Source of the DNA: Bryoerythrophyllum caledonicum
Lineage: Eukaryota > Streptophyta > Bryopsida > Pottiales > Pottiaceae
Assembly: GCA_963971425.1 (NCBI GenBank)
Contig: OZ020514.1
Coordinates: 39,593,158 to 39,657,157 of the forward strand
DNA length: 64,000 bases
Direction of reading: 5' to 3'
Positions 5,233 through 63,373 of the stretch are shown in pieces (the first letter of the stretch is position 1; every line of letters starts with the position of its first letter). Below the pieces are notes generated by a model that did no database searches, was not told where the DNA came from, and saw only the letters and a program-made list of their open reading frames with translations. The translations under genes were made by a program, and so were the position numbers.

Positions 5233-5494
5233 GATAGGAAGATCTTCCCATCTAGTGAGACGCTGAGGATACGAAGATCTTTCGATCTATATGAATGACC
5301 CAAAGTCTAGAGGTAGAGAAGTTAGAACCAACGCTAATGCTACGGGGTCAAAAGGTGCAGGGGAAAATCTTTAGAACGACAACATCCAACAACAATAACA
5401 GACGTCCAAGGACCCTGCGGATAGAAGGATATTTCGATCTTTGTGACCACTGCGGTGATTAGAGGACCTTTGAGATAGGAATATACTCCGATCA
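5233..5494. repeat. Element II words in intron 2 of gene Y
   Basis: Four members of the element II word lie in the 395-bp second intron (5561-5167): about 5233-5252 (ATAGGAAGATCTTCCCATCT), 5268-5287 (ATACGAAGATCTTTCGATCT), 5420-5439 (GATAGAAGGATATTTCGATC) and 5473-5493 (GATAGGAATATACTCCGATC). The words avoid the flanking exons. Confidence 0.75.
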
Positions 5495-6617
5495 ACTCCA
5501 CGGTAAACAACATAACAATGCGAACAAGAGAATGCAATTTAACAAATGGTTTCAAACTTACATTGAATTGAGGCGAGTGTGTCAAACCATTTGGAGATGG
5601 CTAGGGACACTTCGCTTGGGCCCAATTCTTTCGTGCAAGTCCCAGTTGAGTAAGGTAGTTGCTCTCCGCCCTAACTCCGGCCAGATCTTGGTTAAGGATT
5701 CTTGAGTAATAGCACAACTTTCCAAAATTGGTTGGATCTGCCCAAACGATGGTAATGATGAAGCTTTGTGTGTCAGCTAGTTCATCATCACTAAGAGACT
5801 TCTCGGCAATAAGGACTTCATGTGCAGCGATGCAGTGTTGCTCACCGATGATAACATAGTGCGTATCATCTGTAATGTCCCGTCTCGTCAGCTTTGTCAC
5901 AAAATACTCAAATAAACTATTGACGGGATCCACACCAAAATCGTCAGCAGCAGGCTTGTTCTTAATCGGCATAACGTACAGATGATGAAGCAAAGCTTGA
6001 AACGGCATCGTCTGCTTCTAGTGAACAATCTCGCCAACACGTTTCTTCTCAAGCTTCCGATACATTACCACCTCGGGTGTGGCCCTATGTTGACATTGAA
6101 TTTCGACGACGAGGTCAGTCTTCGCATCGTCAAGTCTCCTTATCGGGCGCGTACCAAATATATGCAGACTCAAGAATTCTTTCTCGTACAAGGCCCCTAC
6201 TTTCTTCAGGATCTCTGCCAAATACTTCAAAACTGATTTGCTCGATAACATCACCGCCTGAGCCAATGAGAATTCTTCCATATTGAGATCTGACTTCTTC
6301 CATAGTTTCTTCGTGTCCCCAAGTCGTGAAGTCTCCCCAGCTGCTTGTGACGGCCACTTCTTCTTTCTCGGAGAAGAGTTCTAGGAGATTGTCCGCTTCG
6401 ATTCATCCCGTATCGAAACAAGACCCCATTTGGTGACATTACTTGCATTGAACAAGGGGCTCGGTTTACAGTCATTGAATGTGCGGCCATTGGCCTTGAC
6501 ACCACAGGTCACCGCATCACAAAGGCTCTGAGAACGCCACTCCTTGTTTGTTTTCGACCACAGAATCAAGTTTTCACTGCTCATACAAACAGAATGGTCA
6601 AATCAAACGGCATGATG

Positions 6618-7180
6618 GGATAGGGAGATCTACCGATCAAAACTAAACCAAACGTCGCAAGGTACCCTTGCGAAGGGATAGGAAGATCTATTGATCCACA
6701 TACTCTCAAGCAACTCAAGCCCACCGCACGGTGGGATAGGGAGATCTATCAATCAAAACTAAACCAGACGTCGCAAAGTATCCTCGCAAAGGGATAGGAA
6801 GATCTACCGATCCACATACTCTCAAGCAACCCAAGCCCATCGCAGAATGGCATAGGAATATATTCTGATCTATGAACTCCCTCTGAACTAATCTCGATCT
6901 TATGACCTCACAAAGAGAGATGGAAAGATCTACCGATCTACAAACTCTCAAGCAACCCAAGTCCACTGCAGAGTGGGATAGGAATATATTCCGATCTACG
7001 AACTCCCTCTGAACTAATCCCAATCCTATGACCCCACAAAGAGAGATGGGAAGATCTTTTGATACTCAAAGCTTCTCTCGAACCTATCACTTGATTTTGA
7101 GAGATAGGAATATATTCCGACCTACTGAATTCTGCTCATTTCTACGTTGAACAAGTAGATAGGAATATATTCTTTCATCT
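6618..7180. repeat. Regular array of palindromic words in intron 1 of gene Y
   Basis: Ten copies of a near-palindromic 20-mer (type GATAGGAAGATCTACCGATC, with a variant GATAGGAATATATTCCGATC) start at about 6618, 6676, 6734, 6792, 6850, 6918, 6975, 7044, 7102 and 7157. Spacing is 58, 58, 58, 58, 68, 57, 69, 58 and 55 bp. The segments between words are partly repeated in an alternating pattern. The array fills most of the first intron (7405-6577). It is a tandem or satellite-like structure, possibly a protein-binding array. Confidence 0.85.
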
Positions 7181-7613
7181 AAAACCCTAAACCTCAAGGA
7201 GATATTGCTATATCCACTGATCCACAAAGTGCTTTGGAAATCTTTTTATCAATAAAAAGAGGGATACATAGATATATCTATCTATTGCACCTTGAATTGC
7301 AATGCATAATATAACTAAGCGTAGTTCATATCATTCATATGATATTATCATTGAGCTTGGTTCATGTGTATCACAACAAAGATCATTCAAAGCATGGAAT
7401 CTTACTTGACGAGATTGTCTGAGGCGGTTTCGGACATCGTGTTGCATCCAAAACAGTGCGCAAGCTGAAAATCATCAGAAAACATGTTGGAAGTAGTTGT
7501 TATTGATTGGTTACATGATTAATTATGTAATTAGTATAAGTAGATTGATATTCATTTGAGGAACTCGATTTCAAAGTGAAAAAAAAACGAACTGGAGAAA
7601 TGACCGAGGTTAA

Positions 7614-7979
7614 ATATGTTGTTTTGGTTCTAAAAACCTTCAGGCATGCAAGAAAAGCTGAGGAATAAGAATGAAAGCTGTAATTACCTTCGTCTTAATA
7701 AATCATCACGTCGAGGCACGCGCCGGTTAGCACTGAGGTTGCACCCGTCAGCTGCAGCCGCTCGCTTAGAAAATTTACTCGCTTTCTTGCTCTCTTGGAA
7801 CCTTCAAACACCCGCCGTGAAGGTTTTGTTGGTGACGGTGGCGCTATCAGCGCTGCTCGTGCTCTTCTTGAACCTTCTGACGCTGCTCCTGGCCGCGGTG
7901 CTCCTAATCTTGTTGCTCTTGATCACGATGCTCAGCTTTTCTTGCATGCCTGAAGGTTTTTAGAACCAAAACAACATAT
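7614..7979. repeat. Foldback element with perfect 49-bp inverted repeats
   Basis: Positions 7614-7662 and 7931-7979 are exact reverse complements over 49 bp (outer end ATATGTTGTTTTGG), separated by 268 bp. No target-site duplication is visible (flanks GGTTAA and CGCGCTC). The loop is G+C richer than the surroundings and has no recognisable gene; a Leu-rich open frame across it looks incidental. Perfect arms suggest recent origin or gene conversion. It could be a small non-autonomous transposon or a hairpin RNA source. Confidence 0.8.
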
Positions 7980-8634
7980 CGCGCTCACGAAATCGCCTTC
8001 GACCGACACTAACACCTTGCACTGTTGGTGTTGCTGCTACTCACAAATAGACCTCGCACTCATGCTCACGCTATTGTACTACACTCCATACACAACGCAA
8101 GAAGAGAACAACACGCGGGAGGAGAGAAACGAAGGCGGGGAAGCTAAAAAATCAAGTAGCATTTAAAAAGCAAGAAATGGAGGAGTTGGAAGAGCTATAA
8201 GGGCTGAAGTTGGTGGTGGCGGGAGAGAGGCGATGGAAAAAGTAATGATGATGGAACCAAGTAGTCGACCATGACGGCTAAGTTAACATTTGGCATTTTT
8301 AATGATGATTTTTCCATCATTTCTCTCAAGTGAACTTCTCTTCAAGCTGTGAACTTCTTTTCCTGATCTAACTCTTCATTACTTTCTTGTGTGATTTGAG
8401 TCTTCATTACTTTCTTTTCAAGAATTTTCATTACTTTCTATAACATGAACACCTTTTTGTGATTTGGTTAATAGTTTTACACATTTAATTTACTAAAATT
8501 CTTTTCATTACTTTACAAATTTAATTTTCAGATTTAACTTCTATATTTAATTTTGAAAAAATATTTATATACTTAATTTGCAAAATTGAATTGTAAATTT
8601 AAATTGCAAATGTGTAAAATTATATTTGATTTCC
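7980..8634. other. Non-coding stretch
   Basis: No gene seen. Purine-rich near 8100-8230, T-rich with imperfect repeats of CTTCATTACTTTC near 8330-8440. It lies in the interval (7.44-9.7 kb) where the left boundary between element II and element I must fall; I could not identify terminal repeats. Confidence 0.35.
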
Positions 8635-8757
8635 AAATTTAATTTTATACATTTCATTTGCAAATTTAATTTTTTACATTTCATTTGCAAATTTAATTTT
8701 TTACATTTCATTTGCAAATTTAATTTTACACATTTGATTTATAAACTTACTTTTCAC
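8635..8757. repeat. AT-rich tandem repeat, about 27 bp unit
   Basis: Three to four tandem units of the type ATTTCATTTGCAAATTTAAT. The repeat is open in several frames but has no protein-like character. Confidence 0.7.
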
Positions 8758-9736: not shown

Positions 9737-11613
9737 CTTAAGCTTCCTAGCATTTTAGAGCCTCATGGAGAAGAACTCCTTGTCGGGCTGGACAAGGAGC
9801 ATATTGTACGTCGCGGAAGACACGCAGTGTTCTTGCTTCCACGCTTTCCACACCTCGTCGTTTGTGGACCCGTCTAGCATCAAAAACTTCAAGGAAGGAT
9901 CAATTGCAATCAATTCCTGAAGGACAATGCGCTTCCTCTTCCGGCGATCTGCCCACTTCCTCTAGTGATAGCAGGACCCGTGAACCACGCTTGTCCGCTG
10001 GAGTGTGAATTTTGGATATCCATTTGGGCCTTCACTGTCAACCAGGTAGGTGAACAGGTCCCGTAAGTCCTTATTGGAGAGGTGGCCCAACCTCTTGAAA
10101 AATTCACGATGGATGGGGGAGGCTCTGAAACCTCTAGCCTTGTTATACAAGACCATTGTGTCCAGGGTGATGATCTCACCTTTCGTGTGTTTTTCAAGAA
10201 AATCTCCCGACAGCTTGAAAATGTCATCAAGCAATGAGATCACCTTGATCTCATTCGTGATATCTGATGACTTGTTTACCTGCTTCCCTTCCTTCGTGGG
10301 GTCGATGTTTTGGAAGCGGTTCACGATAAGTTTGAAGAACAACTGCAATATAGGAAACCCTTACATGTCAAATAATTAATCAATAACAATCAAAATGAAG
10401 AAGACATGCATGACGAGAATAATGGACGTTGTTTCTTCTCAAGAAGTATCCTCAGCTTGAGGATACTTCCAGAGACGGAAGCTTACCGAGTATTTCTCTT
10501 AGTCGAAAACTGCGGCATTTCCGCGAGTTGCGCCCTCTCCTTGCTGGTAACTCGGTCGACCCAAGTTGAGTCAAATTCTTCGGCAACTTAAGATGTGGTT
10601 CCCCCATGTCGGTTGAGCATGGTCCAGGTAGTTGGTGTCGTTGTAGAATTTGGAAATCCTCTGCAACTTTAGGGAATCTGTTGATCAAACTACATACGCA
10701 TCCCAATGCTGCAAAACATTCTTCCGATTCTCCTCGCACTTTTTGATGTTTTGTAGACGCCTAGAGGCCTCCACGCTATATTGTCCATTGATTAGCATGA
10801 ACTTGCCATTTCTGATATCGTCCCAAGACGTAGGCTTTTGCTGAAGAGGCTCACCATCCGCATCGATTGGGCAAACGCAGATCTTTTGGCGTTGACCAAT
10901 TTTGCCAAGTTGCATGAGGAAGTCCATGGTGCTTAATACGATGCCCTCCTCCATTCCCCGAATGACGTATTGGGGTTTCGCTACGACGCACTGCTCGATT
11001 CCGACTGAATATGTTCAACTTTCGAACAGAAAGCATCCCTTGCATTCCTCCCCAAGCAAGCGCTGCGATTCGGTGACCACCTCAAAATCCACCTACAAAT
11101 CGTTTCGAACTTTGCTCAGAGTCGCAGCCCGCATTACGGTCGAGGTGGAGCTTCCACTAGTAGTGGACTTCCTCTTCTTTGAGGAGGGCTCTCCAGCGGT
11201 TGGAGTCGTTGTCGACAACCTTCTTGGCGGAGCACGGCTGGAAGTTCTAGGTGTAGATGAACCTAATGGATTGGTTCCATCAGTACCAAGTCAGCTCCTC
11301 CATCATCGAAAGCTTGAACTCCGAGCACAATATACTCCTTCTGTTGTTACTCGACAAAAGTCACTCTCTCCTTTCGGTTCAAAAGCACATACGAGACTTC
11401 GTCACTGACTTTCATCGTTATCTGCACAAACTTCCCAGATTTTGATTTCAACCATGTTCGCACTGTATCTCGAAACGCCCACAGTGTGCCATAGTTCTCC
11501 ACCACGTCGTCGATGAAAAAGGACATATCAAACGGATTTTTGAACCTCTCAATAAAGAACTCCTCCGCGGAATAGTCGTAGTCGTCCACAATATCCATTG
11601 GGTCGTTTGCCAT
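9737..11613 (-). pseudogene. ParB-like cargo gene of element I (gene X), 3' truncated
   Basis: Two coding exons: 11613-10487 and 10342 to about 9737, with donor GTAAGC and acceptor TTGCAG. The junction is in frame (EKYS then LFFKL). The start is the ATG of MANDPMDIVDD. A motif KFMLINGQYSVEASRRL near residue 260 resembles the ParB-like core seen in gene Y and in the 23.8-32.5 kb gene. It follows KPTSWDDIRNG, and a helical middle region follows it, as in those genes. The methyltransferase-like half present in the other two is absent, and the frame runs out at 9.74 kb beside tandem repeats. Decay is heavier than in gene Y, with several TAA, TAG and TGA stops and at least one frameshift (near 11260). 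A possible non-coding 5' exon lies at 12382-12560. The intervening intron carries the element I word array. Confidence 0.5.
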
Positions 11614-11658
11614 CTACTGGATGCATGACCACGCAGTAATTAGAAATCAATTTGTGGC

Positions 11659-12187
11659 CTATCCTCGAGTTGAGGATAGATATTCTTTTTCATGACAAAC
11701 CACATTCTATTGTGTGTTCTGGTATCCTCGAGTCGAGAATAACTAAACATGTAAATGCTCGAAAGTCATGGATTCTTGAATTTTTTATCCTCGAGTCGAA
11801 GATAAATGTTTCCTAAGTCGTTGATTGTATTGTGATTTGGAAGCCGGTTATTCTCGACTCGAGGATAAACAAGGAATCATTTTTACAATTATGGTTTTAT
11901 ACATGATGCTTGGTATGGATGTGAAACGGGCAAATATATTTTTTGCATACAATTTCATTGGCTGCTTAACATCAAACATGATTTCAGGTCCTTAGTGCTT
12001 TTTACCATTGACTTTTAACCAGTTTATCCTCGGCTTGAGGATACGTCACTTCTTGTCATTGTTTTTTCTTATTTTTATTCTTGGGTCGATGATAAATTGG
12101 TTGAAATTCGAACAAATATTAGTGAATCAAATGTCGTTTACATGACTACTGAACCATGACAACAAGTTTATCCTCGGCTCGAGAATA
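11659..12187. repeat. Palindromic word array in 5' intron of gene X
   Basis: Copies of TATCCTCGAGTCGAGGATA (a perfect palindrome around one central base) and close variants start at about 11659, 11722, 11786, 11848, 12024, 12076 and 12168. The first four are spaced 62-64 bp apart. One more lies in the second intron at 10447-10466. The sequence between the words is not repeated. Confidence 0.85.
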
Positions 12188-16561: not shown

Positions 16562-17042
16562 TAACCTCGAGTCGAGGATATCAAAAATATGATATACAAT
16601 GACTAAATCACTTAATTTATGATGGTTATTCTCGAGTCGAGGATAGGAGACTACGAGTTAAATGTCACCTAAGATGATGTTGAGTGTAGTTTGTGAGGTG
16701 GTGAATGCCTTTGTCATGCATGCACTTATGTGTTTCAGATTCGCAGATCTATCCTCGAGTCAAGGATAACACACTGAGGCTTCATGATGTCTGTATTATT
16801 ATCATAAAAACAGATTGGTTCCTTGCAATTTCATATTTTAGGAGATATTTTTACTAATCCGGAATTGATGAATAGATTTTTGAATGTTGATCTTCGTTTG
16901 AAGTGTTCTGAATATTTGATGTGTTCTCTCCGAGTTTGAATCATCTTTGTGATGTTATGAGTAACTAGGATTTTTAATGAATGTTATCTTAATTCAGTGA
17001 TATATCCTTCTATATCTGCAATTATCCTCGTGTCGAGGATAA
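16562..17042. repeat. Palindromic words upstream of DUF7869 copy A
   Basis: Four copies of the element I word: 16562-16580 (TAACCTCGAGTCGAGGATA), 16626-16645, 16749-16768 and 17022-17042 (TTATCCTCGTGTCGAGGATAA). They are the same word as in gene X's 5' intron, 4.4 kb away on the other side of the spacer. They end about 100 bp before the DUF7869 reading frame. Confidence 0.85.
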
Positions 17043-17142: not shown

Positions 17143-18627
17143 TTGACACTGAAAGAACGCTCAAATGATGGTGTAGTCCATGTTCCACCTACCTTACCTC
17201 CAGTTGTTGGTGCATGTGAGATTATTCCTCGTGCATCGTGGTTCTCAAAGCCCGTTATCCTTAAAAACTCATCTGGGGCTGATGTTGGAATTGGACTTTG
17301 CTACAGTGTTGATTCTGGATTTGTTCTTGAAACTAGTGATCGTCCACTTGGAGATGATCATGTTGCTATTCTAATTGCTGAATTCTTAGACGAGAATGAA
17401 ATTCCATTGAATTGGATATTTGCCCTCCGAGCATGGCCAACTCGACAGGTCTTTCTTTGTAATGTGAGTTTGTATGACTAAGAGCAAACTAGCATTTACA
17501 ATGCAGCTCTCAAAGTTTTTCGTCGCGGACCTATAGTAGGCGTTCGACAGTACAAAACCACTCGTCAGAGGGTAGAGGGTCCTTCCCCACCAAAGAAGGA
17601 AGTATTTCTTACTTCACAATCGATCAACTCTGTTGCGAGCACCGTCTGTTGTCCAAGAAATTGTACTCAACGATTTTCACGGTGTTCAATTTCTGTACTT
17701 CGCTCCCAAGTTTACCGTGACATTGGATGTGTTTTCTTTCAGAAACATGTTTGGCTTGATGTACATAGGCGGATCCACATGGATTTCAATGGCAACCATG
17801 TGGTGACGCTTGATGGAATTGATGTATGCCAAAATGCATGGTGTACTATCATGGGGGTTAGCCGAGCCACATTCTACCGGTACAAACGAGAGGCAAAGGA
17901 TGGGATGCGGGCAGGGGCACACGACAATACTGGTTCAAAGAAGCCTCGGACTCATACTCTACAGGCAATTGCTACTCTGCATGATATACTTGATGATGAT
18001 GTTGATCACAGTCCTAATAAGACTACTACACTTGGCACTAGGGAGAAGGTGCTCTCCAAATACCTTCTTGCCTCATTTCAATGGAGTGCAGTGTTGCCCA
18101 AAGTGAATGAGGTGAATGCGAGGTTTAGCCTTCAACCAATATCTTTGTCAGGTCTTAGTCGAATTTGGAGCTTCCAGTTTGAACAATACTCTACGAAAAA
18201 GCCTGGTGACAACTTTGCTCGCTGCGGTAGATGCGACCAACTCAAGCAAGTAAAGAAGGCCTGTACACGGGGGTCCTCCGCATACAAGATGTGGGAAGTC
18301 AAATTGCAGTTACATCAGGCTTCTCAACAGACTCATCGTATTTTATATTATGGGAACCAGATGAACTCGGAAGAAAAACCTAATGAGGTTGTGTGCATCA
18401 TCCATGATAAAATGGATCATAGCAAAACCGCATCTCATCATTTTTCTCACAAGAATAAAGCAACGGAGTCCTTCATGAAATTGCTTGTCGCTGTAACTGG
18501 AATGATTGCGCATGGAAATGGAGATGTTTGCTATGCCCATTATAGTCTTGACAACTTCCCCACTGACTTGAACCACACTATTGGATCCATTATGAAGTTA
18601 TTTCGGGACTTAGAGAGTCCACCGGTG
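17143..18627 (+). pseudogene. DUF7869-type transposase-like gene copy A, 5' part
   Basis: About 495 codons in one frame with only one stop (TAA at 17479). The gene is interrupted by a 15-kb insertion and resumes at 33604. The true start is unclear; copy C begins with an ATG next to an acceptor, so an upstream intron is likely. Visible features: CCPRNC near residue 180, GDNFARCGRCDQLK (C-x2-C pair) near residue 360 and VCIIHDKMDHSKTA near residue 418. The last is the first Asp block of the family; the later blocks D-N-x3-DNKN and GHTHEDID are in the 3' part. The D...D...HxxxD spacing suggests an RNase-H-like DDE nuclease. DUF7869 is recognised from memory of the family motifs; the transposase role is inference. 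Host gene of element I. Confidence 0.65.
18617..18627. repeat. Target-site duplication, left copy
   Basis: GTCCACCGGTG is repeated exactly at 33604-33614. Reading across after removal of the insert and one copy restores the open frame (ESPP then VYSSCEL). Length 9-11 bp is typical of Mutator-like elements. Confidence 0.9.
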
Positions 18628-18676
18628 AGCGACGCTATTTTGTGAGCCTAGAGCAGTGAGCGGTGAGCAGAGAGCA
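18628..18676 (+). repeat. Left terminal inverted repeat of the Mutator-like element
   Basis: It begins AGCGACGCTATTTTGTGAGC and continues with TAGAGCAGTGAGCGGTGAGC. It pairs with 33553-33603 in reverse complement. The inner ~30 bp match almost perfectly, apart from a 7-bp GTGAGCx duplication in the right arm; the outermost ~14 bp match poorly. Confidence 0.8.
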
Positions 18677-23796: not shown

Positions 23797-25829
23797 GCCA
23801 GAGGAGAGAGATGAATTGTTAAGTTTGGCAACTGCACAGAAGAAGAAACGTAGGAGGCGTGGTTTGTGCTTCTCTAGTACGAAGCAACTAAAGAGGTATA
23901 GGATGAGCAAGAGAGTTGCTCCGAGGGTAGACTGTGATGTAGGGGACACTGCACGCGTGCTATCATTTGACACTGAGAATTGCAGAACCAAGGGCAGTTT
24001 ATGAACTGTTATCGAAGTGCAAGGAAGCCTGCCATCAGACCTTGTGGGGAGTGGTGGTGTTCGGAGCGGTAATCCTGGAAGTGGTGACTCGGAGGGGCGG
24101 AGGCAAGGGATGAAACGAGGAGGTGAGGTGGAGGCAAACGAGATGGAAGGAGAGCAGCCACTATTAGAGTTAGGTACAAGTGAAGCGCCTTCAAGTCAAT
24201 CTGAGGAGCATGATGGATTATTGAACAGTCAAAGCAGTGAGTTTGATGCCTCCAATGAAGAACCAAAGAAGAGAAAAGTAAGATCTGACTTGCTTTGCTT
24301 GAAATTTTTTGGACTTTTCATGTGTCTTTAAGAAAGTGAGTTTAAGATGCATGCTAAGTCTTCTCAAGTCAAATATTAATGATTAGGAATGCTCATGGAA
24401 TGGTGGCAAGGAATTGGAAGATATTGAGCTCGGTAGGCTTCGGGGCCGAAGCTTCATTTGGGCAACCGTTGGGCCTTGTCTAAACATATTCTTCGTATGC
24501 AAATTGACCAATTTACTCTTGGAGTACATAGTGGTTGGACCAAAAAGTATTTTTGAAAGTCAAAAGTTTCTATCATCATGAAAGTATTTGATTGTAAATT
24601 ACTTCCACTATCATTCATCCAACTCATCTCAACCAGACTGGTCAAATATTTACCAACTTTGGCATTCTGTTGGATGTAAAACTTCATTTAGTATATATTA
24701 GTATTAGAGAACAAATAAGAGTATAATACCCTCAACATGTGGGTCACATTTTGATCAGGTTTTGATGCCAATATCAACAACTTCAAATACGTTTGGTCCT
24801 TTAGAAGGTAGAATAGTAACTGAGCTTCAGTGATTAGATTTCATACCATTATTATTGACACAGTTTGTCAAATATGGAACCCATTAATTATATTAATTTT
24901 AATGTTATAGTTAAGAATAATAAATTCAAAAGAGAGGGACAAACTATTTGTTAGAAATTGAATGGTATTCAGCCCATGGGGCTAAATTATCATAATGAAG
25001 AATAAAAATTGATAAAAAATCAAGTCATAATCATTCAATTAAGTCTGTTCAATATATCACAATTTCGATGAGAGACTTCAACTGTAATGTGTACTTTTCC
25101 ACTAATACATGTCTTCAAGTGTACATTTTCAGTGTACATTTCCAGTGTACAATGAGAGACTTCAAGTGTACATTTCCACTAATACATGTCTCTCATGTGT
25201 TGAATTAAGTAATTTGTAGATTTGAAGTCTAAAATGTCTTTGTTGTCCAGAATTCTTTGCAACGATGTTCCTGTGTAGTATAGATGATGATTATTCTGTG
25301 CACGATGTTCCTGTGCAAGTACCTTCACCTGTTTTAGATCTGAAGGTCTTGCTTTGGAATTGTATTCGTTACAGATCCCAAGTCTGACGGAGTGCCGGCA
25401 GAAACGGATTCGCCGGTTCAGTCTTGGTGAGAAGTTTGCAGGATTCGTCACAGAGAAGTTTGCTGGATTTGTTGCTGGATTCGTCGTGTATGTGGTGATC
25501 ATCGTGTGTGTGTGCTAGATTCGTCGTAGTTGAAACTTGTGTTTGTTTGCATACTCTGGTTGTGTCCTGGTGCGAACGCTAGATCGATTATGGGTCTCGT
25601 TAGGTCTCGAAGTGCGTCGTTAGGTCTCGAAGTGGCAGGTTCCAATAGCTTAAATTAATTAGCATATTTGTGAGCTGGTCGGAGGATGATTGATCTTCGA
25701 GTGGAGGAGGCTTCGGTGCCGAAGCCTTCTCGATGCGCAGAACACAATATCTCCGCCAACATCTTGGCGACAGGACCTCGACCTCCCAGCGCCGAATTTC
25801 AGGCACCATGGGATAGTTTTCATCGGGAC

Positions 25830-26020
25830 AACAAGTGGCGGGACACGCAGCAAGACTCTTCGCCGCGACACACAATGCCGGGACTTGCAGCGAGACTTGT
25901 AGCGAGACCGCAGGGAGACAGTGCCGGGACTCGCACCTGGACACTTTGCAGCCGGAAACCGAGTGCCGGAATTGCAGCAGGACACTCCGCAGCGGGACAC
26001 CCAGGGCCAGGACTCGCATG
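25830..26020. repeat. G+C-rich short repeats in intron
   Basis: Imperfect reiteration of GCCGGGACTTGCAGCGAGAC-like units. Several overlapping open frames on both strands are artefacts of this composition. Confidence 0.5.
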
Positions 26021-26495
26021 TAGAAAGTACAAATTCCTTTAGACGATCTCACCAACAGTGCCGACTTCTTCCGTGTAGTTCGTAAGGCCAAGCTAGAAGA
26101 GACCAACTCATCCTACGTTGCAGATCAGTGACAGGCTTCGCACAAACAGAACAGCCAGGCACCCAGCAAAGCGTCAACGAATTTCGAATCATTGAAAGTT
26201 CGTCAAGACACAAATCCCTTCCTGCAAGTAGAAGCTACCGGAATATGCTTGTCTAGACACACCATGGCCTCCAAAACTTGGCTAGAGCGACCACGGATGA
26301 TCCCTTTCTCGCTCGTGCACACAGTTGCGAGAAGCTACTATCTGTCTCCGAAAGTTAGCACAGAGCAGGAAAAGAGGGTGTAGAAAGTAAGTGGGGCACA
26401 ATCACCATGTGAAGCTGCTCTTTTCAACTCATCTGACAGAATCTTGAGTGTTAAACTTTCCAGCAGCCTATGCGCTCTCCCAGTTTGCGACTTGC

Positions 26496-26600
26496 AGTGA
26501 ATCAGTGCATTGCATCATTGCATCAGTGAATTAGTGCATTAGTGCATCAGTCCAGTTCGCGACTAGCAGTGCATCAGTGCATCAGTGCAGTGCATCAAAC
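26496..26600. repeat. GTGCATCA-type microsatellite
   Basis: About ten loose copies of AGTGCATC/AGTGAATC in tandem, inside the first intron region of the ParB/methyltransferase-like gene. Confidence 0.7.
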
Positions 26601-29600
26601 ATCGGTGCTCAAATTTGACGCTTGGGTTTGGTCAATTGGTTCAATTTTGATAATTGTGTTATGTGGGACTCTGGCTGGTGATAGGAAGTTGACAGAGGAA
26701 CAATGGAGGCCCCTCTCGGAGAGAGTTTGGCACCGAACCCTCCTGTAGATACGAATGTAAATCTTCCAGTTGATTACGGTTTTTGATATGTATCTCTCCG
26801 GTATATGCGCTTGGTGCGCTTGATGCGAATTGTTTTGAAAACCTTTCGAGATCGTTCTAGCTGAATCCAGATTCTCTTGTCCTATGTTGGTCACAGGTGG
26901 GAGCCGGGATGACTAAGGATAGAGAGCTGCTGGAGCCTTCGGCCCCAAACCCTTGCTTGGCGACCGAGGTAAGCCTTAATATTCTCTTATGAATTGTGCA
27001 CTTTGTCCATACTTTGATTATGTTAATATGGAGGTAAGGTTCAGTATCATGGAGTTGCTAAGTGTTGTTGCTCTCTATGCTCTTTGTGCTCCTGTTCGAT
27101 TTGAAATTATATCAATTAAATTGGATTTTTCATGGAAATTATCATGTGCTCAAGAGATCACGAGTTGCCTGATGAGGCTTCGGCACCGAAGCCTCATCAG
27201 GCAACCTATCATTTCTTCTATGAAATATGTATGAAGTTGATATATCAAGTTTAATTAAGTCCATTTCCTTGGTTCTGTTTGTGCTTAGCTATAATTTTTG
27301 TGTTATTTGTCTTTGGATGCCGCATGAAGAAAGCTTTCGCTTCGAAGATTTTATTTAGGATTTTTATATCGGTTCATAAATCATGTTCTACACTCCTTCA
27401 ATTGTCCACTTGAAGTGGTTTAGATTACGTAGCTGGGTTTTAAGACGATTGGCAATTTATATTTGATGAACCGTCATTCTCATGATATGTTGAATTCAAT
27501 GCGGATGCCATGATTGACTTTGCTACGGTTATTTGTAATTTTGTTGCTTTCAACTTGTCCAGCTGTGTCCAACATGTTATTTAAAATATTATATTTGCAT
27601 GAGTGTATTACAACAGCTTAAATTAATTAGCATTTAACTTCAATTTAAAATCGCTTGATAATATTTGGAGATCAGTTTAAGATGCTCCTTAGAAAAACAA
27701 ATTGTTTAACCGTAGCTTAAGTTTTTAGATTTCTCTCCATGAGTTATATGCCTTATTCATAAATGAATTTTATAAACAATTTAAGGTCTGATATGGTTTA
27801 TGATATGGTAATTTTTCTGGGTGTTGGTGTTGTGCTATGCTATTTATGCTCAGAGTTTGAAATGGGTCGGTGACATGTCAAAATATTTTGATAACTTGAT
27901 AACATAATATTTTCATCTTTGTGCTTTAGAATAGAGAAAATTCAGCTAATTGTCAATCTCTAAATGCGATATTACTATGGATTTTGCAACTATGGAAATA
28001 TTTACATATATAGTTCATATTGTCTTTAAAATGAGAGTGGAACGAGATTCACATGTAGGCATGTGATACAATCTTTAGTAACTACCTTCCATAGATTGTA
28101 ATAAGAAAAAAAAATCTCTTGTAGGTAATGGCACATATAACGATGAGGCTTTTGTACCAAAGCCTCCTTGACAGCCATCCTAGGGTATTCTTGACCGCAA
28201 TCATTCCTAGGTTTAGCATGTTTTATGTGATGGACATGTTTAATATATGGTAATTCATCAAATGTGCTTATGATTGTGACTCTCGTTTGTTTCAACTGTG
28301 GAGGAATTTGCCGTTGTCCTAATCAAATAATTGAGTCTTGAGTTTATAGACCCAATTTGAATATGGATATCCTATTTCATGCCCCATGTTTAATGTGCCG
28401 CATGTGTTAACCCTGACTATTTTGATATGTATTGAGACCACTCTACTTTAATGATATGTGTGTTACCTTGATTTGTTTTCTTGAAAGCTTTGGCATTATC
28501 TAGTATTGCTATGATTTAGTGAATTCTTTAAAAAAGGGGATACAGGTCTCTGATTCGGCGGATTCAGTTGCCGACTCCGACGACTGCACAACAGTGAAGT
28601 GTCCACCAAATTGCGACGATGCTAAAGAAGGGGAGCGATTGCGGCGCAAGTTGGAGAAGCGACACTATCACTCCGTTTTAAATAGCATGCGATCTTTGGA
28701 TTCAGGGTTACAAATCCCATTATGGAGGCTCTTACCTTTGCCACGAGTTAGACCAGTTCAATAGGTGGATGTCCGACGCTTGGAGATTCTTTTTGAAGAT
28801 TGTGATGGATGTGATGATGCAGATCGTGCTCTATACGTGTCCATCTACAACGATAAGGAGACCACTACTGACGTTGGAGACGAGCATCGGACTTCTTGGG
28901 GTCATCATTGGCATGATGCAAATGACCGGTTTGACGCCCAGCTTGAGTATTCACCTTTATATGCTCATTTGAGAGGTAAGATGTTCTATGTTTGGGATGG
29001 CAATCACAGATTCTCCGCTTGGTGGCGCAAAATCAACAACGATCACTCTGAGGAGGCTCGCTGGCATTTCTCAGTCATCTGCATCGTCTTGGACCCCCGA
29101 GGCCACATTGGACCTCTTCTAAATGCAATGAACGAGGTTAACTGGTATGTCTTTGAAATTTCTATTCATACAAATTCTATTATTTCATTTATTTTCTTTA
29201 ACCACTCTCAAATTAGGTCCACTCAAAATGATCATGTCAAGACTAGTCTCCCTGCTCGATTGACACGGATGCGATATTTTGGAGCACTTTCATTGGAGGA
29301 CTTTCGTGACTTGCTGACTCCCACTGAGTACAAAACTTGTGGAAAAATAGAAAAGAGTAGGCCGACGTGGTTCCCTCTCATGGTTGATGTCTTCATCTCC
29401 TTTTTGTATCGGGTGCGTTTTCTTTTATCACATTTGAGATTTCAAGATTATTTCACTCAATTTGAAAAAATACTTCGTTGCTGATAATAGAAATTCTCTC
29501 CCCAGGCTGACATATCCGGTGCTTCTGATGAGGCTGTCCGTGAGTACAATGATCGTACTCAGGAGAAGGATAGGACTGCGGAGGCCGTGTGGAGGGTCAT

Positions 29601-36250: not shown

Positions 36251-36304
36251 AATCTCTCTTCTGTGCCCTCTAAGTAGTTTCTGTCCTCTGAGTATGTAAT
36301 TTTT

Positions 36305-38847: not shown

Positions 38848-39035
38848 GCACCTTTATGCCATAATTTTTACACATTATCGTGATGACTAAAACTAGACTT
38901 TGACCACTCTGGACTTTCCAAAGTCTGGATTTAGTTAAATATGGCATATGCTCAAAGTTTAGCTAAAAGTGAGCTACATGACGGACAAATAGCCAGTCGT
39001 AAGAGAATTAGCAAAACAATATTTTGAAACCGTAT

Positions 39036-41848: not shown

Positions 41849-42118
41849 CCTGCATTCCGATAAGAAAATATTAGATTATCCTTTCAATCAGTATCGGTGA
41901 ATACCCTATAGGAATGGAAAGCAATGCACAAGCAGATGAAATGGGTAGTTTAGCTCGAATCAAGGTAAAGTCTGGCGTTTGAAAAGAAGGACTTGCATCA
42001 AAGTGAATTGATTTTGTAGAACATGCAAATTTAGCTCGATTTGAGGTAAACTCAAGTGGTATAATATGATAAGAATACAATTTCATGCCTATGCTACGAA
42101 TGCAAATAATAAACTCAA

Positions 42119-44849: not shown

Positions 44850-45985
44850 TTTAAAATTCAAAAGATTTTTTATTCACCTTGTGGAATACTTAACCATAAA
44901 AAGTAGGGAGTTTGAAATGATGGTTTTAAGAAGTGGAATTACACATTGCACACACATTAGCTCGGTTTTTAGCTAAACTCTGCCCCATCACTACGTGCAA
45001 TGAACTCAAAGGAGTAAGTGCACACACTTTATCTCCTATGGAGCTAAAGTGTGCCCCATCACTAGATGCAGGAACTAAAAAGAAAATGAAGCTACAAGTA
45101 CAAGATTGGAAAAATATGAACATTCTTTTGGAAACAAATGTAAGAAAATAAAGAAATATTGGTAAAAGGAAAAACTTAAACTTACAATAAATATAGAAAT
45201 ACAAGTAAAATACTCATTAGATATCCATCACATATGCATTCAATATACATTACATATTCTGTAAATATTCATTAAATAATTATTAAATATTCAAACATAC
45301 ATTGATTATACATTAACTATTCTTTATTAGTCATTAATTATTCATTAAATACTCTATAAATAATCATTTAAAATATAAATATTCATTAAATTGTCATAAA
45401 ATATACATTTAAAAATCTAAAGATTCATCAAATAATATTTAAATATTCTTTAATTGTTCTTTAAAGTTACAGATATACAAATATACATTTAATATTCTTT
45501 TAAAATTCATTACAAACTCATTAGGTTTTTGCAAAATATATAATTACACATTAAATATTCATTAGATATTCAATAAAAATGTATAACAAATGCAAGAGAT
45601 GGGAATGGGAATAGTTAAGAATGGGAGGATAAAAAAATGAGGTTGAGGATGAGACAAGAAGAATACATGCATGGCGGCCGATAGGCAGCAGATTGTGGGC
45701 CTGCTCTATTTATCAACTAACAAAGTTGTGTGCTAGGATAGGGTTTTGATTGGAGGCTAATACAAAATGAACTAGAGTAGGTGGACAATTGAGGGATAAT
45801 ATTCATGACAATGTGGCTGACACTAATTGCCAACTTGTTAACAAATAGTGTACTAGGCTAACTACACTCTTTGTACCATTACACTGAAAGCAATCTTTAG
45901 TGTAAACAAAATTGTGCACCATCCCTAAAAGAAAATATTCACACTTTAGCTCCACTAGAGCTAAAGTATGCATCGGCATTTACTT
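44850..45985. repeat. Direct repeat with element III words, right copy, interrupted
   Basis: Homologous to 39036-39330 but split by about 850 bp of AT-rich sequence (about 45080-45930). Words are at about 44953, 45021 and 45938. The interruption is flanked by similar strings (CTAAAAAGAAAAT at about 45072 and CTAAAAGAAAAT at about 45924), suggesting an insertion with target duplication. Inside it, 45200-45560 is a diffuse repeat of CATTAAATATTC. Confidence 0.65.
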
Positions 45986-46642
45986 TATAATTTTTCATCT
46001 GCAAGATGTGGTCTAAACCTACTTATTGACTATTTGATTCTCATTGTAAAAAAATATCAAATTCCCAAAAAGGAAAAACTTGAATTCAAAGTAATAGAAT
46101 CTTAAATCGTAGCTTAAAAATTATTTTAAATGTGCTTCACCCCTCTCCAACACCTAACTAGTGTAGGAGGAACTTATATATCACGATGGAAATGAATTTA
46201 CTCCTTGTGTAATGCAGAAATTGAAATCGAGTCAAGTCTAAGCCAACTGATCCACTCAAATTATGAAAGAAAACTAATCACTATAATCCTCTTTTTAACA
46301 CTAAATACTATAATCGTTCACTTCCGTGCGATCAAAGTTTGTGTATTATTGAGAATATGTCAATTTGTAAGTCTTAATTGAGATCATATGGTTGAAATTG
46401 GAAGTAATTATTTTTCTTGGTTTCCTACTCATTGCCCCTGAATAAACAATTTTGTAGTGTTTAAGGCTTAGAGAAATTGTGTAGGAAATTTATGAATAGA
46501 AAAATAGTAAACGCGCATAATATCTTGAACTTAGCCTAGTGAGATTAAATTTACTTCTTGAAATTCCGAGTATCAATAATGAAGGTGAATGATTTGTGGT
46601 GCATCCACCATTAATACCTGAGGTTATTATCCCAATATCCCG
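45986..46642. other. Non-coding stretch
   Basis: No supportable gene seen. Confidence 0.35.
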
Positions 46643-46741
46643 AAGTGTATCTCGAGGGTATCGGGGGAGCACCACAGGGCTATAGGATTTCAACCCTCCA
46701 CGGCTTTAGGTGCTCGAGGGAGTACCCCCGAAGTCGAGGTG
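46643..46741. other. G+C-rich inverted-repeat segment
   Basis: An island with CGGGGGAGCACC and, about 40 bp later, GGTGCTC...CCCCCG, capable of imperfect pairing; TCTCGAGG and CTCGAGGGAG also occur. Function unknown. It stands out from an AT-rich surrounding and lies just upstream of a possible leader exon. Confidence 0.35.
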
Positions 46742-47115
46742 CAAGTCTCTTTTCTCTCATTGTTATGTGCATGCTAGCTTTGATGCTGAAGTTTCTTGCA
46801 TTATAGTTGCCGCTTGTGTTCATATTGTCTTTGTTCTTTGCGTTAGAGTTGCCCCTTGTGTTTGTGTTGTTTTCTGTAGGGTTTGCTGAATTTGTGTACG
46901 TTGTAGCGCTAGAGTTTAGGATTTGTTGGGCTTTTTATTTGTTGCGCTCTTTATATGCAGCGCTTTGCTTTTCTACGGATAGGGTTTGTAGGAACTGTGG
47001 ATTATTGTTGTGTGAGTATATAAGTACGTAGATTCAGTTACGGTTGTGCGAGAGGGATCGAAGTGAACGTGGACCAAGACGTGCAACTAAGGAGTCGGAT
47101 TTCTCACTCTTAAAG

Positions 47116-47859
47116 GTAAGTGCACACATTCATGTTTAAATGCATTGTCTTGCATTGCTTTTTATATATGTGTTGTTTGTCATTGAAGTTTTTTTTGTTC
47201 TGTGGTTATGTTTAAATGGCTAGTTTTGTAGCATTTTGGAGGTCCAATTTTTGCTTGTTTTGTGTGGTTTGTGGGAAGTTCGTTATCCTCAATTCATGCT
47301 TATGAGTTGAGGATGATTTATTCTTAATAGTTCATTCACGGCATTTTGTGTGTTTTAAACAGTGAGTGTATCTTCAATTTTATTATGTGTGTATTGCAAG
47401 TATGGTCTTGTGGTCTTGGTGGTATTTTCTGTGGTAGTGTTCAGTATTTTTTTCTCGTGAAAGAGGTAGAGTAGCCATTAATCTGGTTTCTGTTTGTATT
47501 AGATTATGTTGTGAGTGCGTGTGTTCATTTGAATGTTCAATGTGCTACTTTGTGTTTAGGTGAGTGTTGAATTATTGTGTTTATGTTGCAACACATTCTG
47601 TGTGCATGTTGTTTTTTATTTTGTTTCGGTGCTCAATTCATGTTGACTCTATGTGTTCTGGTTTGGTGTTTTGTTACGAATTTATTGTTTGGTTGTTTGT
47701 GTGTGTTTGAGTTCCACTATGAGTGTTTGTGTTGATGTTGTGTGTGTTTTTTTCCATGTTATATTGTTTCTCTTCATGATCGATTAGTTGACTGAGTTTG
47801 TGATATGGTTTTTTAGTTGGTTTTGTTGCTAATAGTTTGGAATGTTATTCTTGTTGCAG
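47116..47859 (+). other. Candidate intron of a plus-strand leader
   Basis: A consensus donor (AAAG|GTAAGT at 47115/47116) and acceptor (TTCTTGTTGCAG ending 47859) bracket 744 bp of T/G-rich sequence. The flanking segments (about 47030-47115 and 47860 on) have no long frame, so this would be a spliced 5' leader. It lies where elements I and II have the 5' end of their ParB-like gene, and the element III word array follows at 48.0 kb. The coding part that should follow may have been replaced at 48391 by the Ty3 element. Confidence 0.35.
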
Positions 47860-48021
47860 GACTTCAAGTTCCAATTGAACAAAACTGTGGTTGAAGTTCA
47901 TTAGAAATGGCTAAAACGTAAACTCAAAACTCTCGTCACAGAGGCCTAAACCCTAAGCTTTAAACAATATATGAAGGAATAGAATCTGCACAAAACTTAA
48001 TGAAATTAGCATTTCGGTCAC

Positions 48022-48339
48022 CACACTTTAGCTCGAGCCGAGCTAAAGTGTGAACAATAGCGCACATTGTTGTTTCCATTGTAGCTCGAATCGAGCTCAA
48101 GTGCAGCCAAAGACGAACAAGGCCAATACACATTAGCTCAACTCGAGCTAAAGTAACGTTATTATCTACTCTCAATTCACAACTCTTGAAGGGTATATTC
48201 CAAAATTCTTTTGAGCCACTCGAGCTAAAGTGTGGCCAATAGCACATTCTATTGGCTCGTCTTCAGCTTGAGTCAAGCTAAAGTGCGGCCAAAGACGCAC
48301 AAGGCCAGTACACTTTAGCTCGACTCGAGCTAAAGTGTG
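48022..48339. repeat. Element III palindromic word array
   Basis: Six words start at about 48022 (CTTTAGCTCGAGCCGAGC plus TAAAG), 48080, 48129, 48210, 48264 and 48308 (CTTTAGCTCGACTCGAGC plus TAAAG). They are 44-81 bp apart, and several are followed by TGTG or TGCGGCC. It is the same family as at 39.1-39.3 and 44.9-46.0 kb. The array stops 52 bp before the Ty3 left LTR. Confidence 0.85.
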
Positions 48340-54407: not shown

Positions 54408-55525
54408 AGATTGCAGAAGAATTGCTGGCTGGGATATTCGATGAGGCCAACGAATCTCTGCAGGTCTTTAGTCCTCTTGCGAACGTGTTGAAGTCTGCGG
54501 TCAATGATGCAGATTCAAACTCACTGAAGTACAGCCAGGATTACAGGGTCGACTCGGAGTTTCTTCATGATGAAGCTGCTGTTGGGGAGAAGAATGCGCG
54601 CTGCGGTGCCCATTTTGGTGGTCGACACTCTACTGAAGGTATATCTCTTGGAGGCCGCTCTACCTTCACTACTCTCCTCTTTTTGCGATGTATCGATAGA
54701 TGGAAATATCTTCTGATGTCATTGCCTTCTTGGTGCTCTATATATCTAGATGGGAAGATCTTCTGATGTCATTGCCTTCTTGGTGCTCTATATATCTAGA
54801 TGGGAAGATCTTCTGATGTCCTCGCCTCCTTCATTTGGTGCTTTATAGATCTTAATAGGAAGATCTTTCGATGTCCTAACCTCCTCCTTTTGGTGCTCTA
54901 TATTGCTAGATAGGAAGATCTTTCGATGTCCTTCCCTCTCTACTAACGCTTGCTCTTTGGTTCGCTGCAGCTAAAATACCTCCACCCGCTCTGACTGTCG
55001 CCCCTCGCTCTCCAAAGGTAATGGATCCGAGATACACAGTCGTCCTGGACTTGAATGGATTTCCGGTCCGCAGAACTGATAGCGGTCGCGGTTGTATCCA
55101 TAGACCCGACTGTGTTCGGTTTTTGAACTGGTTGTGAAGTATGGCTAATGTTGTGGTATGGAGTTGCCATTCCGAGAAACATAGAATTCATGTTAGATTG
55201 TATTGTGTCTGGTTCTTCTCTCAAACAAGAGCAACTGCTGGTATTGTCACAGAACGATGTGACGTTTTCTTCCTTTCCTAGAAGCAAGAGCATTGAGACA
55301 GACAAAAAGTACATGATGAAAGATCTTAGAAAACTTAGAAGTGTTCTTGAGCATGTGAACCTTGATCGGGCAGTGCTTGTTGACGACAGCCCAAAGAAGA
55401 ACCTCCTCAACGGGCAGTTCAACAATGTTCATCCTTCGGAGTGGTCAAGTGAATTGCCGGACCGGTTTCTCATGAACACCATGCTTCTGTGGCTGCAGAT
55501 TATGATTGCCTCTAAGCTCCCTTAT
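54408..55525 (+). pseudogene. FCP1/HAD-like phosphatase-domain gene, third copy, with N-terminal exon
   Basis: The first exon is cut by the Ty3 LTR and runs to 54638 (EELLAGIFDEANESLQVF and downstream). A 332-bp intron (GTATAT...TGCAG) with words follows, then an exon from 54971 that joins in frame: HSTE, AKIPPPALTVAP, YTVVLDLNGFPVRR. Strand 1 is DLNGF (DxN). Later, after a TGA where copy 1 has TGG and a frameshift near 55170, come SGSSLKQEQLL, AVLVDDSPKKNLL and HPSEWSSE. It breaks off after IASKLP, where copy 1 continues with ADFVRENPLSG, at the junction with hAT-derived sequence. Because it carries element II words it must come from a second element II-type copy. The upstream exon shows the protein has an extra N-terminal region of unknown role. 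Confidence 0.65.
54695..54928. repeat. Element II words in the FCP1-like intron
   Basis: Five words start at about 54695, 54747, 54797, 54854 and 54908 (the last GATAGGAAGATCTTTCGATG), 50-57 bp apart. Two adjacent units including GTGCTCTATATATCTAGATG are identical, a recent tandem duplication of about 50 bp. All lie inside the intron 54639-54970. Confidence 0.85.
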
Positions 55526-56248
55526 TATACTATTTTCATGTTTGTCGGAAATACAACAAGGGTAATTTAAATTACTGCACCAATGAAGTATTCAAAGAAC
55601 GGTGCATCCAAACGTACCAACACATCTACAACACAGCAAAGGTTCAACAAAAGGAGGTGAATCTATCCATTTTACGTATGGTGTATGCAGAAATTATACT
55701 CGAAGTAGTAGTCGATTGGAGGACGATGGAAATACAACCAAACTCCAAGATGACACCAGTATCCATGGCAACACTACCAATACAGCGCAAGTTTCCGGGC
55801 GAAGCTCTAGAAAAAAGGCCAAGGAGGTTGAAGTTCCAAACGAGGAAGTCATGTGGTCTGACACTTCCATTCACGACTCGAATATTGGGTGTGACTCAAC
55901 TTTTCAAAAGGAGATTGAAGGCTTTATTAAATGCCATTGGCTAGATTCTGCCCTCCAAGAAACACCGACAATTGGAGAAGATTCCGGCAAGGAAGAAGAT
56001 CCAACTGAGATGGACGCCGTTGCATTCGAGAACAACAATGAAAACCTGGAGTCTTCTGATGATGTTCCAATTGGCCGAGAGGCTCATCTTCAACTTCTTG
56101 CTAAATATCAGTAGTCTACAGGAAAACAAGAATCTAGTAGAAGAAGCCATCCGCAACAAAGAGGAACTTCAAATATTATGCGCACTACTCCAAGAAAAGG
56201 ACAAACAAATCTAGGAATACGCGAAGTTGGTGTTTACTTTAAAGTTGT
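55526..56248 (+). pseudogene. hAT-associated accessory ORF, truncated copy
   Basis: It aligns with 57600-58330: NLNYCTNEVFKERCIQTYQ, NLSILRMVYAEIILEVVVDW and RKFPGE match the second copy. A frameshift near 55790 leads into an acidic middle (SGKEEDPTEMDAVAFE) and a coiled-coil-like end (NKEELQILCALLQEKDKQI). The function is unknown to me. Its 5' end is missing and fused to the FCP1-like pseudogene. Because the second copy precedes a DUF659 hAT transposase, I infer it is an accessory protein of that element type. Confidence 0.5.
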
Positions 56249-62124: not shown

Positions 62125-62339
62125 AAGATGACGGACACGAGGGTACTACAAGTTAAAAGTGTCTTTAGTAGTGTGGTGATGGCATGGTACAATAGTACCG
62201 CGGTTTTAAAATATGTACTTGGAGTTGAGAGTGCCCATTCATGAAGGCACCACATTGAATTAAATAATTTTAATGTTAGACCACCCTTGTACAATTGTAT
62301 TCTTTCAAATTCTCTAAACCTCAGTCCTTTTGAGGGGCA

Positions 62340-62760
62340 AACGCATTGTTCAAGCGCGCACGCCCGGCCCCTAACCGCGCGCGCCCGATAGGCAGGTGCG
62401 CGCGCGACCCACGATGGTATGCGCCAGGCCCGTGACGTTGCACGCCCGGCCCCTAACGGTACGCGTATGACTTTAACGGTACGCGCCCGGCCCTGATGCG
62501 TACGCGCCCGACACTGATATACACGCGCCCGACCTTGATATGCACGCGCCCGACCCTGATATGCACGCGCCCGGCCCTGAGGGGTACGCGCCCAACCTTG
62601 TATGTACGTCCCCGGCCCTAATTGGTACGCGCCCAACCTTGTATGTACGTCCCCGGCCCTAATTGGAACGCGTTCGGCCCTGCACGAACGCGCCTGATCT
62701 GGATTGGTACATGCCCAACCCCAAATGCTGCGCGCGCGGTCCGAAGGCACGCAGCCGCCC
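62340..62760. repeat. CG-rich repeat cluster, right, of hAT element
   Basis: About eighteen units around a core ACGCGCCCGGCCCTGA or TGATATGCACGCGCCCGACC, often 21 bp apart. They are the same word family as at 57.2 and 58.6 kb, here downstream of the transposase, so the word family brackets the hAT genes. Confidence 0.8.
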
Positions 62761-62865
62761 CTTGATGTGACGTGGAAAGCCGTCTTACGTGTCGAGCACA
62801 CGTGTTTTACTTGGGGATAAGTTTAAAATTTGATTTGGGGTTTGTAATTTTTTTTAGACGCAACC

Positions 62866-62959
62866 GTCCTCCAAAAAATGTTGTCCGTCCTATCCGTACG
62901 TCTGACTGTCCGGTTGTCCGCTATTTTTGGGCCCCTGTCCGTCTATGAAGACAACCCTG
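62866..62959 (-). repeat. Candidate right terminus of the hAT element
   Basis: Read on the minus strand the segment begins CAGGGTTGTCTTCATAGACG and contains repeated GGAC/CGGAC motifs (subterminal repeats). CAGGG is a common hAT end. The 8 bp outside (GCTGCCCA) would be the target duplication, but I did not find the left partner, so the left end may be lost. Confidence 0.45.
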
Positions 62960-63030
62960 GCTGCCCAAACTAGATCCATCCAGTGATTAGATGTACTAAT
63001 TAGGAGCAATTTCTTGAGTTTCAAAAATCA

Positions 63031-63373
63031 GCCGGAGATCTCCAGATGATTTCGTTGTCTCATGGATCATGAAAGCCCCTTTAATGATGTGTTTATTCTA
63101 GCACATAGCCGGAGATCTCCGGACTTTACAAAGGAGTGGAGATACTCCTTGATGACGATGTGAAGATTTGTGCCCTCAATTTTGGGATCATGAACCGGAG
63201 ATCTCCGATTGTTGCATAAAATGGATCCTTTTCATCAATAGAGGTACTTTTTAAGACGACTTTCTAGAGTTCCACTAATCAGCCGGAGATCTACCGATTC
63301 TTTCGCTGTCGCCCGAAACCAGAGGACTTTCCATTGTTGTTCTAATTCTGACACAAAGCCGGAGATCTTTGGG
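63031..63373. repeat. Palindromic word array, CCGGAGATCTCCGG type
   Basis: Five copies start at about 63031 (GCCGGAGATCTCCAGATGAT), 63108 (GCCGGAGATCTCCGGA, perfect), 63194, 63282 and 63358, spaced 77, 86, 88 and 76 bp. The intervening sequence is not repeated except for short TTCTAGxAC-like pieces. It lies 180 bp upstream of the next reading frame, as in elements I-III. Confidence 0.85.

Follow-up and report, generated by a model that had tools for sequence, protein, structure and literature searches.

Families of palindromic words in the non-coding DNA of DUF7869 transposons from the moss Bryoerythrophyllum caledonicum

Few systems are known in which transposons recognize their own DNA in a sequence-specific way. 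One of these is VANC of the Arabidopsis VANDAL elements, whose motifs are 8–9 bp long and arrayed in one orientation (PMC5735166; PMC10398659). Here we describe families of palindromic words in a 64-kb stretch of the 437-Mb genome of the moss Bryoerythrophyllum caledonicum (assembly GCA_963971425.1, contig OZ020514.1, positions 39,593,158 to 39,657,157; hereafter the window, to which coordinates refer unless another stretch is named), which belong to large inverted-repeat DNA transposons encoding a DUF7869 (PF25273) protein and a partner protein. As the VANC motifs are described in the relevant parts of the two reports, the moss words resemble them in being short, family-specific and dense in the non-coding DNA of their own element (introns, upstream regions and termini), often as tandem arrays that change as a set (PMC5735166; PMC10398659). 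Both systems are multi-gene DNA transposons, and both traits of VANC motifs, clustering in own non-coding DNA (weak in a rotation test given below) and divergence as a set between related elements, were found here. The moss words differ in that they are palindromes of 14–31 bp with jointly varying arms rather than 8–9-bp motifs in one orientation, and the candidate transposase of the moss element is DUF7869 instead of a Mutator protein, with 29-bp inverted repeats and 4-bp target duplications. No Pfam match to DUF1985 or DUF287 was obtained in the scanned segments of the window and of the neighboring stretch L021, in which not every open frame was scanned.

Palindromic sites are also known from the bacterial ParB-parS system, to which the moss partner gene is linked by a ParB-like motif, a resemblance of motif with no family match. 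The target duplications of CACTA elements are 3 bp long, whereas those of the moss element are 4 bp. CACTA elements (En/Spm, Tam1, Tgmt*) share with it family-specific repeats, a diverging element-encoded reader (putative in the moss element) and, in Tgmt*, palindromes; in that account, however, CACTA repeats cluster near the ends, whereas the moss words run through the whole element (34 over 18.2 kb in copy C, described below) (PMC2613891). The ends of three moss copies begin with AACACC and not with CACTA, and the repeats of copy C are not confined to subterminal regions. Sola2 elements are similar by description, with a transposase of about 900 amino acids, inverted repeats of small size and target duplications that measure 4 bp and are often AT-rich, and the moss element has both the 4-bp duplications (GTGG, AATT, ATTT) and the short inverted repeats; in contrast, palindromic word arrays are not described for Sola2 in the parts of the report that cover these features (PMC3627910).

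Five word families and the coupling of their arms

A preliminary description of this stretch had proposed five unrelated palindromic words at given places, each confined to one element. All five families (W1 to W5) were located at those places and exceeded chance, as assessed by mismatch-tolerant matching in the window and in 60 second-order Markov shuffles of it. W1 (GATAGGAAGATCTTTCGATC-like) had 25 matches against a shuffle mean of 0.05 and W2 (TATCCTCGANTCGAGGATA) had 12 against 0.25, both at up to 4 mismatches, which is far from the equal frequency in shuffled sequence that the same description had named as grounds for dismissal. The remaining words had 16 matches for W3 (as a 23-mer, up to 7 mismatches; shuffle mean 1.3, maximum 5), 7 for W4 (GGCTTCGGNNCCGAAGCC, up to 4 mismatches; mean 0.7, maximum 4) and 5 for W5 (CCGGAGATCTCCGG, up to 2 mismatches; mean 0.1), and overall the counts were about 10 to 500 times the shuffle mean. 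When 300 arm-permuted palindromes were counted in the real sequence, none reached the count of W1, W2 or W3, while 2.3% reached that of W4 and 1.7% that of W5. Clustering of near-palindromes without preset words returned six clusters of at least three members, namely W1, W2 (as two), W3, W4 and W5, with no further word family in the window, and the same clustering in 8 shuffles gave three small clusters. One W1 cluster member, at 59442, looks like chance, and W4 is the weakest word, with two exact copies (one within a 42-bp palindrome at 27164–27205) and one copy with a single mismatch. An Rfam search returned no match.

Parts of the preliminary description had to be revised. Its spelling of W3, the 18-mer CTTTAGCTCGAGCTAAAG, lacks the central base and has no exact copy in the window and none reported genome-wide; the true word is CTTTAGCTCGANTCGAGCTAAAG, with dyads of 31 bp at 48022 and 29 bp at 48310. 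W2 and W3 have the core CTCGANTCGAG in common and are thus not unrelated, and W1 is present at three separate loci in the window (2.7–7.1, 35.9–38.7 and 54.7–54.9 kb) rather than in one element. The idea of one own word per transposon is too simple, as a single element holds several arm variants across its arrays and families share a core.

As palindromes, the words recur in non-coding parts of the element: in upstream regions, in its flanks, and in the gaps that separate open-frame blocks within the partner gene. Within DUF7869 coding DNA there were none of 7 words at the 36-kb locus, none of 15 at the 39–48-kb locus (a 16th match, at 48090, was dropped because it overlaps that at 48079) and none of 7 in L001, a related copy from another DNA source; with independent placement, p was 0.0013, 0.0028, and 0.00023, respectively. 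L001 was the one locus recovered by a scan of genome contigs, on the 4.3-kb contig CADCWO010000071.1, which was binned as a desert-crust cyanobacterium and is probably misbinned moss transposon DNA. It contains an open DUF7869 frame of 944 codons, whose DNA is 72% identical to the fourth DUF7869 gene of the window, and seven W3-type words (up to 7 mismatches), all in the flanks and none in the frame. Comparison of these flanks (1,492 bases, of which words make up 161) with the W3 locus by blastn gave 64 matches at E ≤ 1, of which 57 overlap words, and 18 at E ≤ 0.01, all of which do; in these alignments, the words are nearly all of the flank DNA that can be aligned between the two loci. The best L001 word, GTTTAGCTCGACTCGAGCTAAAC, has its outer base changed relative to W3 on both arms.

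The two arms of the words vary together more than expected by chance. We collected all matches to the core GCTCGANTCGAGC (up to 2 mismatches) in the window, L001, and the further stretches L003–L028 (n = 182), with flanking bases unused in detection, and dealt out the right arms among the words in 1,000 shuffles. Arm complementarity at the outward bases was 0.96 (shuffled 0.92) at the first, 0.88 (0.71) at the second, 0.65 (0.30) at the fifth, 0.80 (0.69) at the sixth, 0.69 (0.54) at the seventh, and 0.53 (0.34) at the eighth, each exceeding the largest value of all shuffles, while the third equaled the shuffle maximum (0.96) and the fourth was scarcely above it (0.86 vs 0.85). The main arm classes were CTTTA/TAAAG (48), GTTTA/TAAAC (34), and ATTCA/TGAAT (11). 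Words at the second DUF7869 gene of L009 have the consensus ATTCAG/CTGAAT, with both arms exact in 6 of 12, and other arrays have GTTTAG/CTAAAC or CTTTAG/CTAAAG arms; with variants altered on both arms, the words of related copies do change as a set, as had been anticipated. In W1 variants, AATATATT takes the place of the central AAGATCTT, which changes both sides (4 of 23 distinct copies for this pair).

The element beside the window

In the 220 kb examined beside the window, DUF7869 genes were found in the stretches L004, L008/L009, L009, L013, L022, and L024, and W3-type words surround every one of them except that of L024, which has W2 words upstream. This region contains three copies of one element, A, B, and C (19.4, 18.8, and 18.2 kb; 81–95% identity per aligned block), whose ends are 29-bp inverted repeats close in sequence to AACACCATATTCGTTATATTGGGAGATTT, and which are flanked on both sides by the 4-bp target duplications GTGG, AATT, and ATTT. 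The DUF7869 gene lies near the right end and is directed rightward, while the partner gene runs leftward, encodes a phosphatase domain of NIF/FCP1-like type (23.8 bits against a cut-off of 21.8) and has, in L007, the motif IINGQYSVAASK. Copy C contains 34 words (up to 6 mismatches) between positions 637 and 17,892 of its 18,227 bases, including arrays at 7.7–8.0 and 13.8–14.1 kb; arrays have steps of 52–53 bp and 46–47 bp, and some words are subterminal, near the right end (335, 593, and 665 bp away) or the left end (637 bp away). Open-frame blocks are avoided by 31 of the 34, and the other three touch a stop-to-stop block, one lying wholly at the block end and two overlapping it by 2–3 bases.

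The expectation that words fall within copies of one element class held in this region. Strict W3-core words numbered 104 in the 220 kb and none in ten third-order shuffles; 80 lie inside copies A, B, and C, and most of the remaining 24 are in stretches (L004, L009, L020) that contain additional DUF7869 genes or parts of elements. L010 and L015–L019, six stretches of 10 kb that lack a DUF7869 gene, contained no word. An initial genome-wide search with the DUF7869 protein returned 5,120 candidates, 48 of which were scored and listed; 29 among these 48 have no internal stop, and four of the 48, hand-picked from different contigs, are accompanied by 10, 12, 16, and 15 words, all of them outside the coding stretch. 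As a side observation, a 238-bp sequence with the same inverted-repeat ends (L008:5292–5529) lies inside copy A and is absent at that place in copy C, and is probably a non-autonomous relative of the element.

Proposed self-recognition and rival explanations

Because the sites are symmetric, have coupled half-sites, are kept where their neighbors diverge, and are non-coding, element-wide, and class-specific, we consider it highly probable that the words serve as symmetric sites for a dimer that the element encodes for its own use. That they are self-recognition sites of this dimer used, most likely, for anti-silencing is a further step on which we are evenly divided. Each word would be a two-fold symmetric site of a dimeric element-encoded DNA-binding protein. 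Candidate readers are the partner protein and, within the DUF7869 protein (probably a DDE-type transposase), a helix-turn-helix region. Bound to many arrayed sites, the reader would mark the whole element, whose marked promoters and introns would escape silent chromatin and DNA methylation by the host, as with VANC in Arabidopsis, and arm divergence would separate the families. TnpA of Spm also counters methylation. Such a reading would extend self-recognition to another transposon class, with symmetric words whose half-sites vary together; it would allow the pairing of word and reader to be traced through the numerous copies that a single family has within one genome, would make the divergence of protein-target pairs directly testable, and might yield a set of DNA-binding proteins with different targets.

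Alternatively, the words could be sites at which an accessory transposition protein or the transposase assembles the element ends, as TNPA does in CACTA, with regulation secondary, which we regard as possible but doubtful. CACTA subterminal repeats are described as family-specific, with dissimilar TNPA-like proteins as their presumed readers, and those of Tgmt* from soybean can form palindromes (PMC2613891); the subterminal words of copy C are in keeping with this, but most of its 34 words are far from the ends, in the two internal arrays and the partner gene region, and W1 words occur in a putative intron. We prefer anti-silencing to TNPA-type end assembly on grounds of position: like VANC sites (PMC5735166), the words occur within the partner gene and in upstream regions. 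A host origin, with ordinary promoter elements for host transcription factors copied by the transposon, would fit the arrays upstream of both genes; given that words are also found in partner-gene gaps and 3′ flanks, that variants are changed on both arms, and that six 10-kb stretches without these elements have no word, it is distinctly unlikely. Some arrays, those of W1 at 6.6–7.0 and 54.7 kb, are true tandem repeats, as expected if palindromes were by-products of slippage or hairpin-prone sequence under neutral expansion. In the W2 array at 11660–11867, however, words are identical pairwise at 16–17 of 19 positions while spacers, at 11–16 of 44, are unrelated, yet words and spacing are kept; with the words nearly all that aligns with the L001 flanks and the arms complementary above chance, we find neutral expansion very hard to sustain. 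It is barely credible that the words act as RNA hairpins in transcripts (for processing or as small-RNA sources): their nature as inverted repeats, placed in transcribed or flanking DNA, would fit, but their consensus central gaps of 0, 1, or 2 bases are too short for a normal RNA loop, and most asymmetric W1 words at 5.2–7.1 kb face the opposite way, relative to the gene, to those at 54.7 kb (the word at 2737 excepted).

Several observations weigh against self-recognition by an element-encoded dimer. The preliminary description had placed the words in introns and upstream regions and not in exons; the avoidance of DUF7869 coding DNA stands by count, but a rotation test that keeps the clustering is weaker (0.063, 0.034, and 0.056 for the 36-kb locus, the 39–48-kb locus, and L001), and the partner-gene introns, read from the sequence, are putative. 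The L001 words were detected by their likeness to W3, which makes the alignment footprint partly circular, and what it adds is how little else aligns. Asymmetric arm classes also occur (GTTTA/TAAAT 14, ATTTA/TAAAC 8, GTTTA/TAAAG 5, CTTTA/TAAAC 1, others 1–3 each), several arm variants are found within one element in different arrays, and the 182 matches are related by descent and tandem duplication, so the class numbers count classes and not independent events. Covariation within W1 alone (24 copies, leaving out 7159, 54698, 54799, and the chance-like 3687) is suggestive, with 13 of 500 shuffles reaching the score and with one pair showing two-sided change, below the shuffled mean of 1.8; the same applies to W3 alone (20 copies, 13 from the window and 7 from L001, leaving out 38957, 39209, and 48090), where 30 of 500 shuffles reach the score. 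All four DUF7869 genes of the window are broken, and the words of copy C that lie 335–665 bp inside its right end leave room for a transposition role.

One particular form of the reader, suggested by motif, would make the partner a eukaryotic ParB-like clamp and the words its parS: it would load at the scattered palindromes, spread, coat the element, and exclude host methylation, its FCP1-like domain would act on RNA polymerase II, and families would part as half-sites and protein changed jointly. We regard this as unlikely. The ParB-like motif was seen in L007 as well as at three loci of the window (W1, W2, and W4) with no profile match, and Pfam, NCBIfam, PHROGs, protein search, and fold prediction gave no support beyond motifs, which also speaks against the wider reading. 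A protein search with the joined W4 partner had no match at E ≤ 0.001, and a three-sequence fold prediction for the ParB-like exon reached pLDDT 36 and was not used. Chance matches were all that came of a phage tblastn search with two ParB-like exons (the one followed up is a Thy1-family protein), of PDB sequence searches with the ParB-like exons (xylanase rows) and of one with the DUF7869 profile (one row). Foldseek with the DUF7869 model gave no match at E ≤ 0.001, and viral contigs contained no DUF7869 relative and no exact word. We also rejected the idea that a methyltransferase-like partner methylates the words at Dam-like GATC or TCGA sites, as W1 variants with AATATATT lack GATC. Literature searches found no paper on DUF7869, none joining ParB, Physcomitrella, transposon, and methyltransferase, and, among the matches listed, none describing such an element.

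Words, genes, and other features of the window

The four DUF7869 genes of the window lie at 17.2–18.6, 33.5–34.9, 36.3–38.0, and 39.6–41.8 kb. W2 words are upstream of the first and of a divergent partner gene, W1 words bracket the third, W3 words bracket the fourth, and W4 words are upstream of a gene taken, by position, as the partner of the second. Full-length relatives of the DUF7869 protein numbered 104, and the eight with a species name come from Ceratodon purpureus (3) and Physcomitrium patens (5).

At the leftmost locus, W1 words (2737..7122) occur at 2737, 5233, 5268, 5420, and 5474 and as an array at 6619–7122 in 58/68-bp steps; W1 words lie in a gap between the open-frame blocks of the minus-strand partner gene 3702..6602 (ParB-like motif VIIGEQHCIAAH, by eye) and upstream of that gene, and a minus-strand NIF/FCP1-like phosphatase domain lies at 1859..2548 (Pfam NIF, 25.9 bits, cut-off 21.8). 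A second copy of this domain at 55028..55567 on the plus strand (27.3 bits; DNA 86% identical to the first) belongs to a gene whose putative intron (GT...AG, 54640–54970, read by eye) holds a W1 array of five copies in 50–55-bp steps (54698..54928; the first copy, at 54698, is degenerate). The remaining W1 words are upstream (four copies, 35866..36188) and downstream (three copies, 38121..38724) of the broken plus-strand DUF7869 gene remnant 36278..38031. W2 words at 10447..12187 comprise 10447 and 11660–12187, those at 11660, 11723, 11786, and 11849 being in exact 63-bp steps just upstream of the ATG (11613) of the broken minus-strand partner gene 9758..11613, which has the ParB-like motif LINGQYSVEASRRL (motif only). 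Four further W2 copies (16562..17041) precede the broken plus-strand DUF7869 gene 17176..18645, of which about the first half is present.

W4 words (24436..28164) occur at 24436, 25709, 27176 (inside the 42-bp palindrome), and 28147, with degenerate copies at 26723 and 26935, next to the plus-strand gene 28504..32514. This gene, in a plant-type transposon, has a ParB-like motif (VWDGNHRFSAWW) and a methyltransferase-like motif (GDIVLDWKACIGT), with profile scores at chance level (NCBIfam E 0.092, PHROGs E 0.31). It is followed by the later half of a broken plus-strand DUF7869 gene (33468..34943) and, 0.9 kb past that gene, by an inverted-repeat-like right end on the minus strand (35805..35833; differing at 3 of 29 positions from the end located past the W2-type gene of L024). 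W3 words lie downstream (38957..39491) of the broken minus-strand DUF7869 gene 39560..41848, which has a partial duplicate at 42137–42885, and as two copies (41948..42051) 100–200 bp upstream of its first codon (41848), a distance comparable to that of an L001 word (488–510) from its first codon (604). Further W3 words (45027..48335) are at 45027 and 45944 and in a cluster at 48026–48335 that includes the two dyads. Five W5 words in 76–88-bp steps (63032..63372) have no owner gene in the window, and W5 words continue rightward in L003 and L005, two stretches that yielded no DUF7869 gene.

Between the W3 locus and the W1 NIF locus, the two are joined by a Ty3-type retrotransposon (48392–54408), with long terminal repeats 97% identical and flanks TTTAC and AGATT, that is, no target duplication. 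Minus-strand large open frames of unknown family occupy 19741–22786, between the W2 and W4 loci, and contain no palindrome cluster. A fold-back stretch at 7614–7979 has perfect 49-bp inverted arms 268 bp apart, and GC-rich tandem repeats of 21 and 42 bp (57269–57421, 58630–59017, and 62479–62672) flank a DUF659 (hAT-like) gene on both sides.

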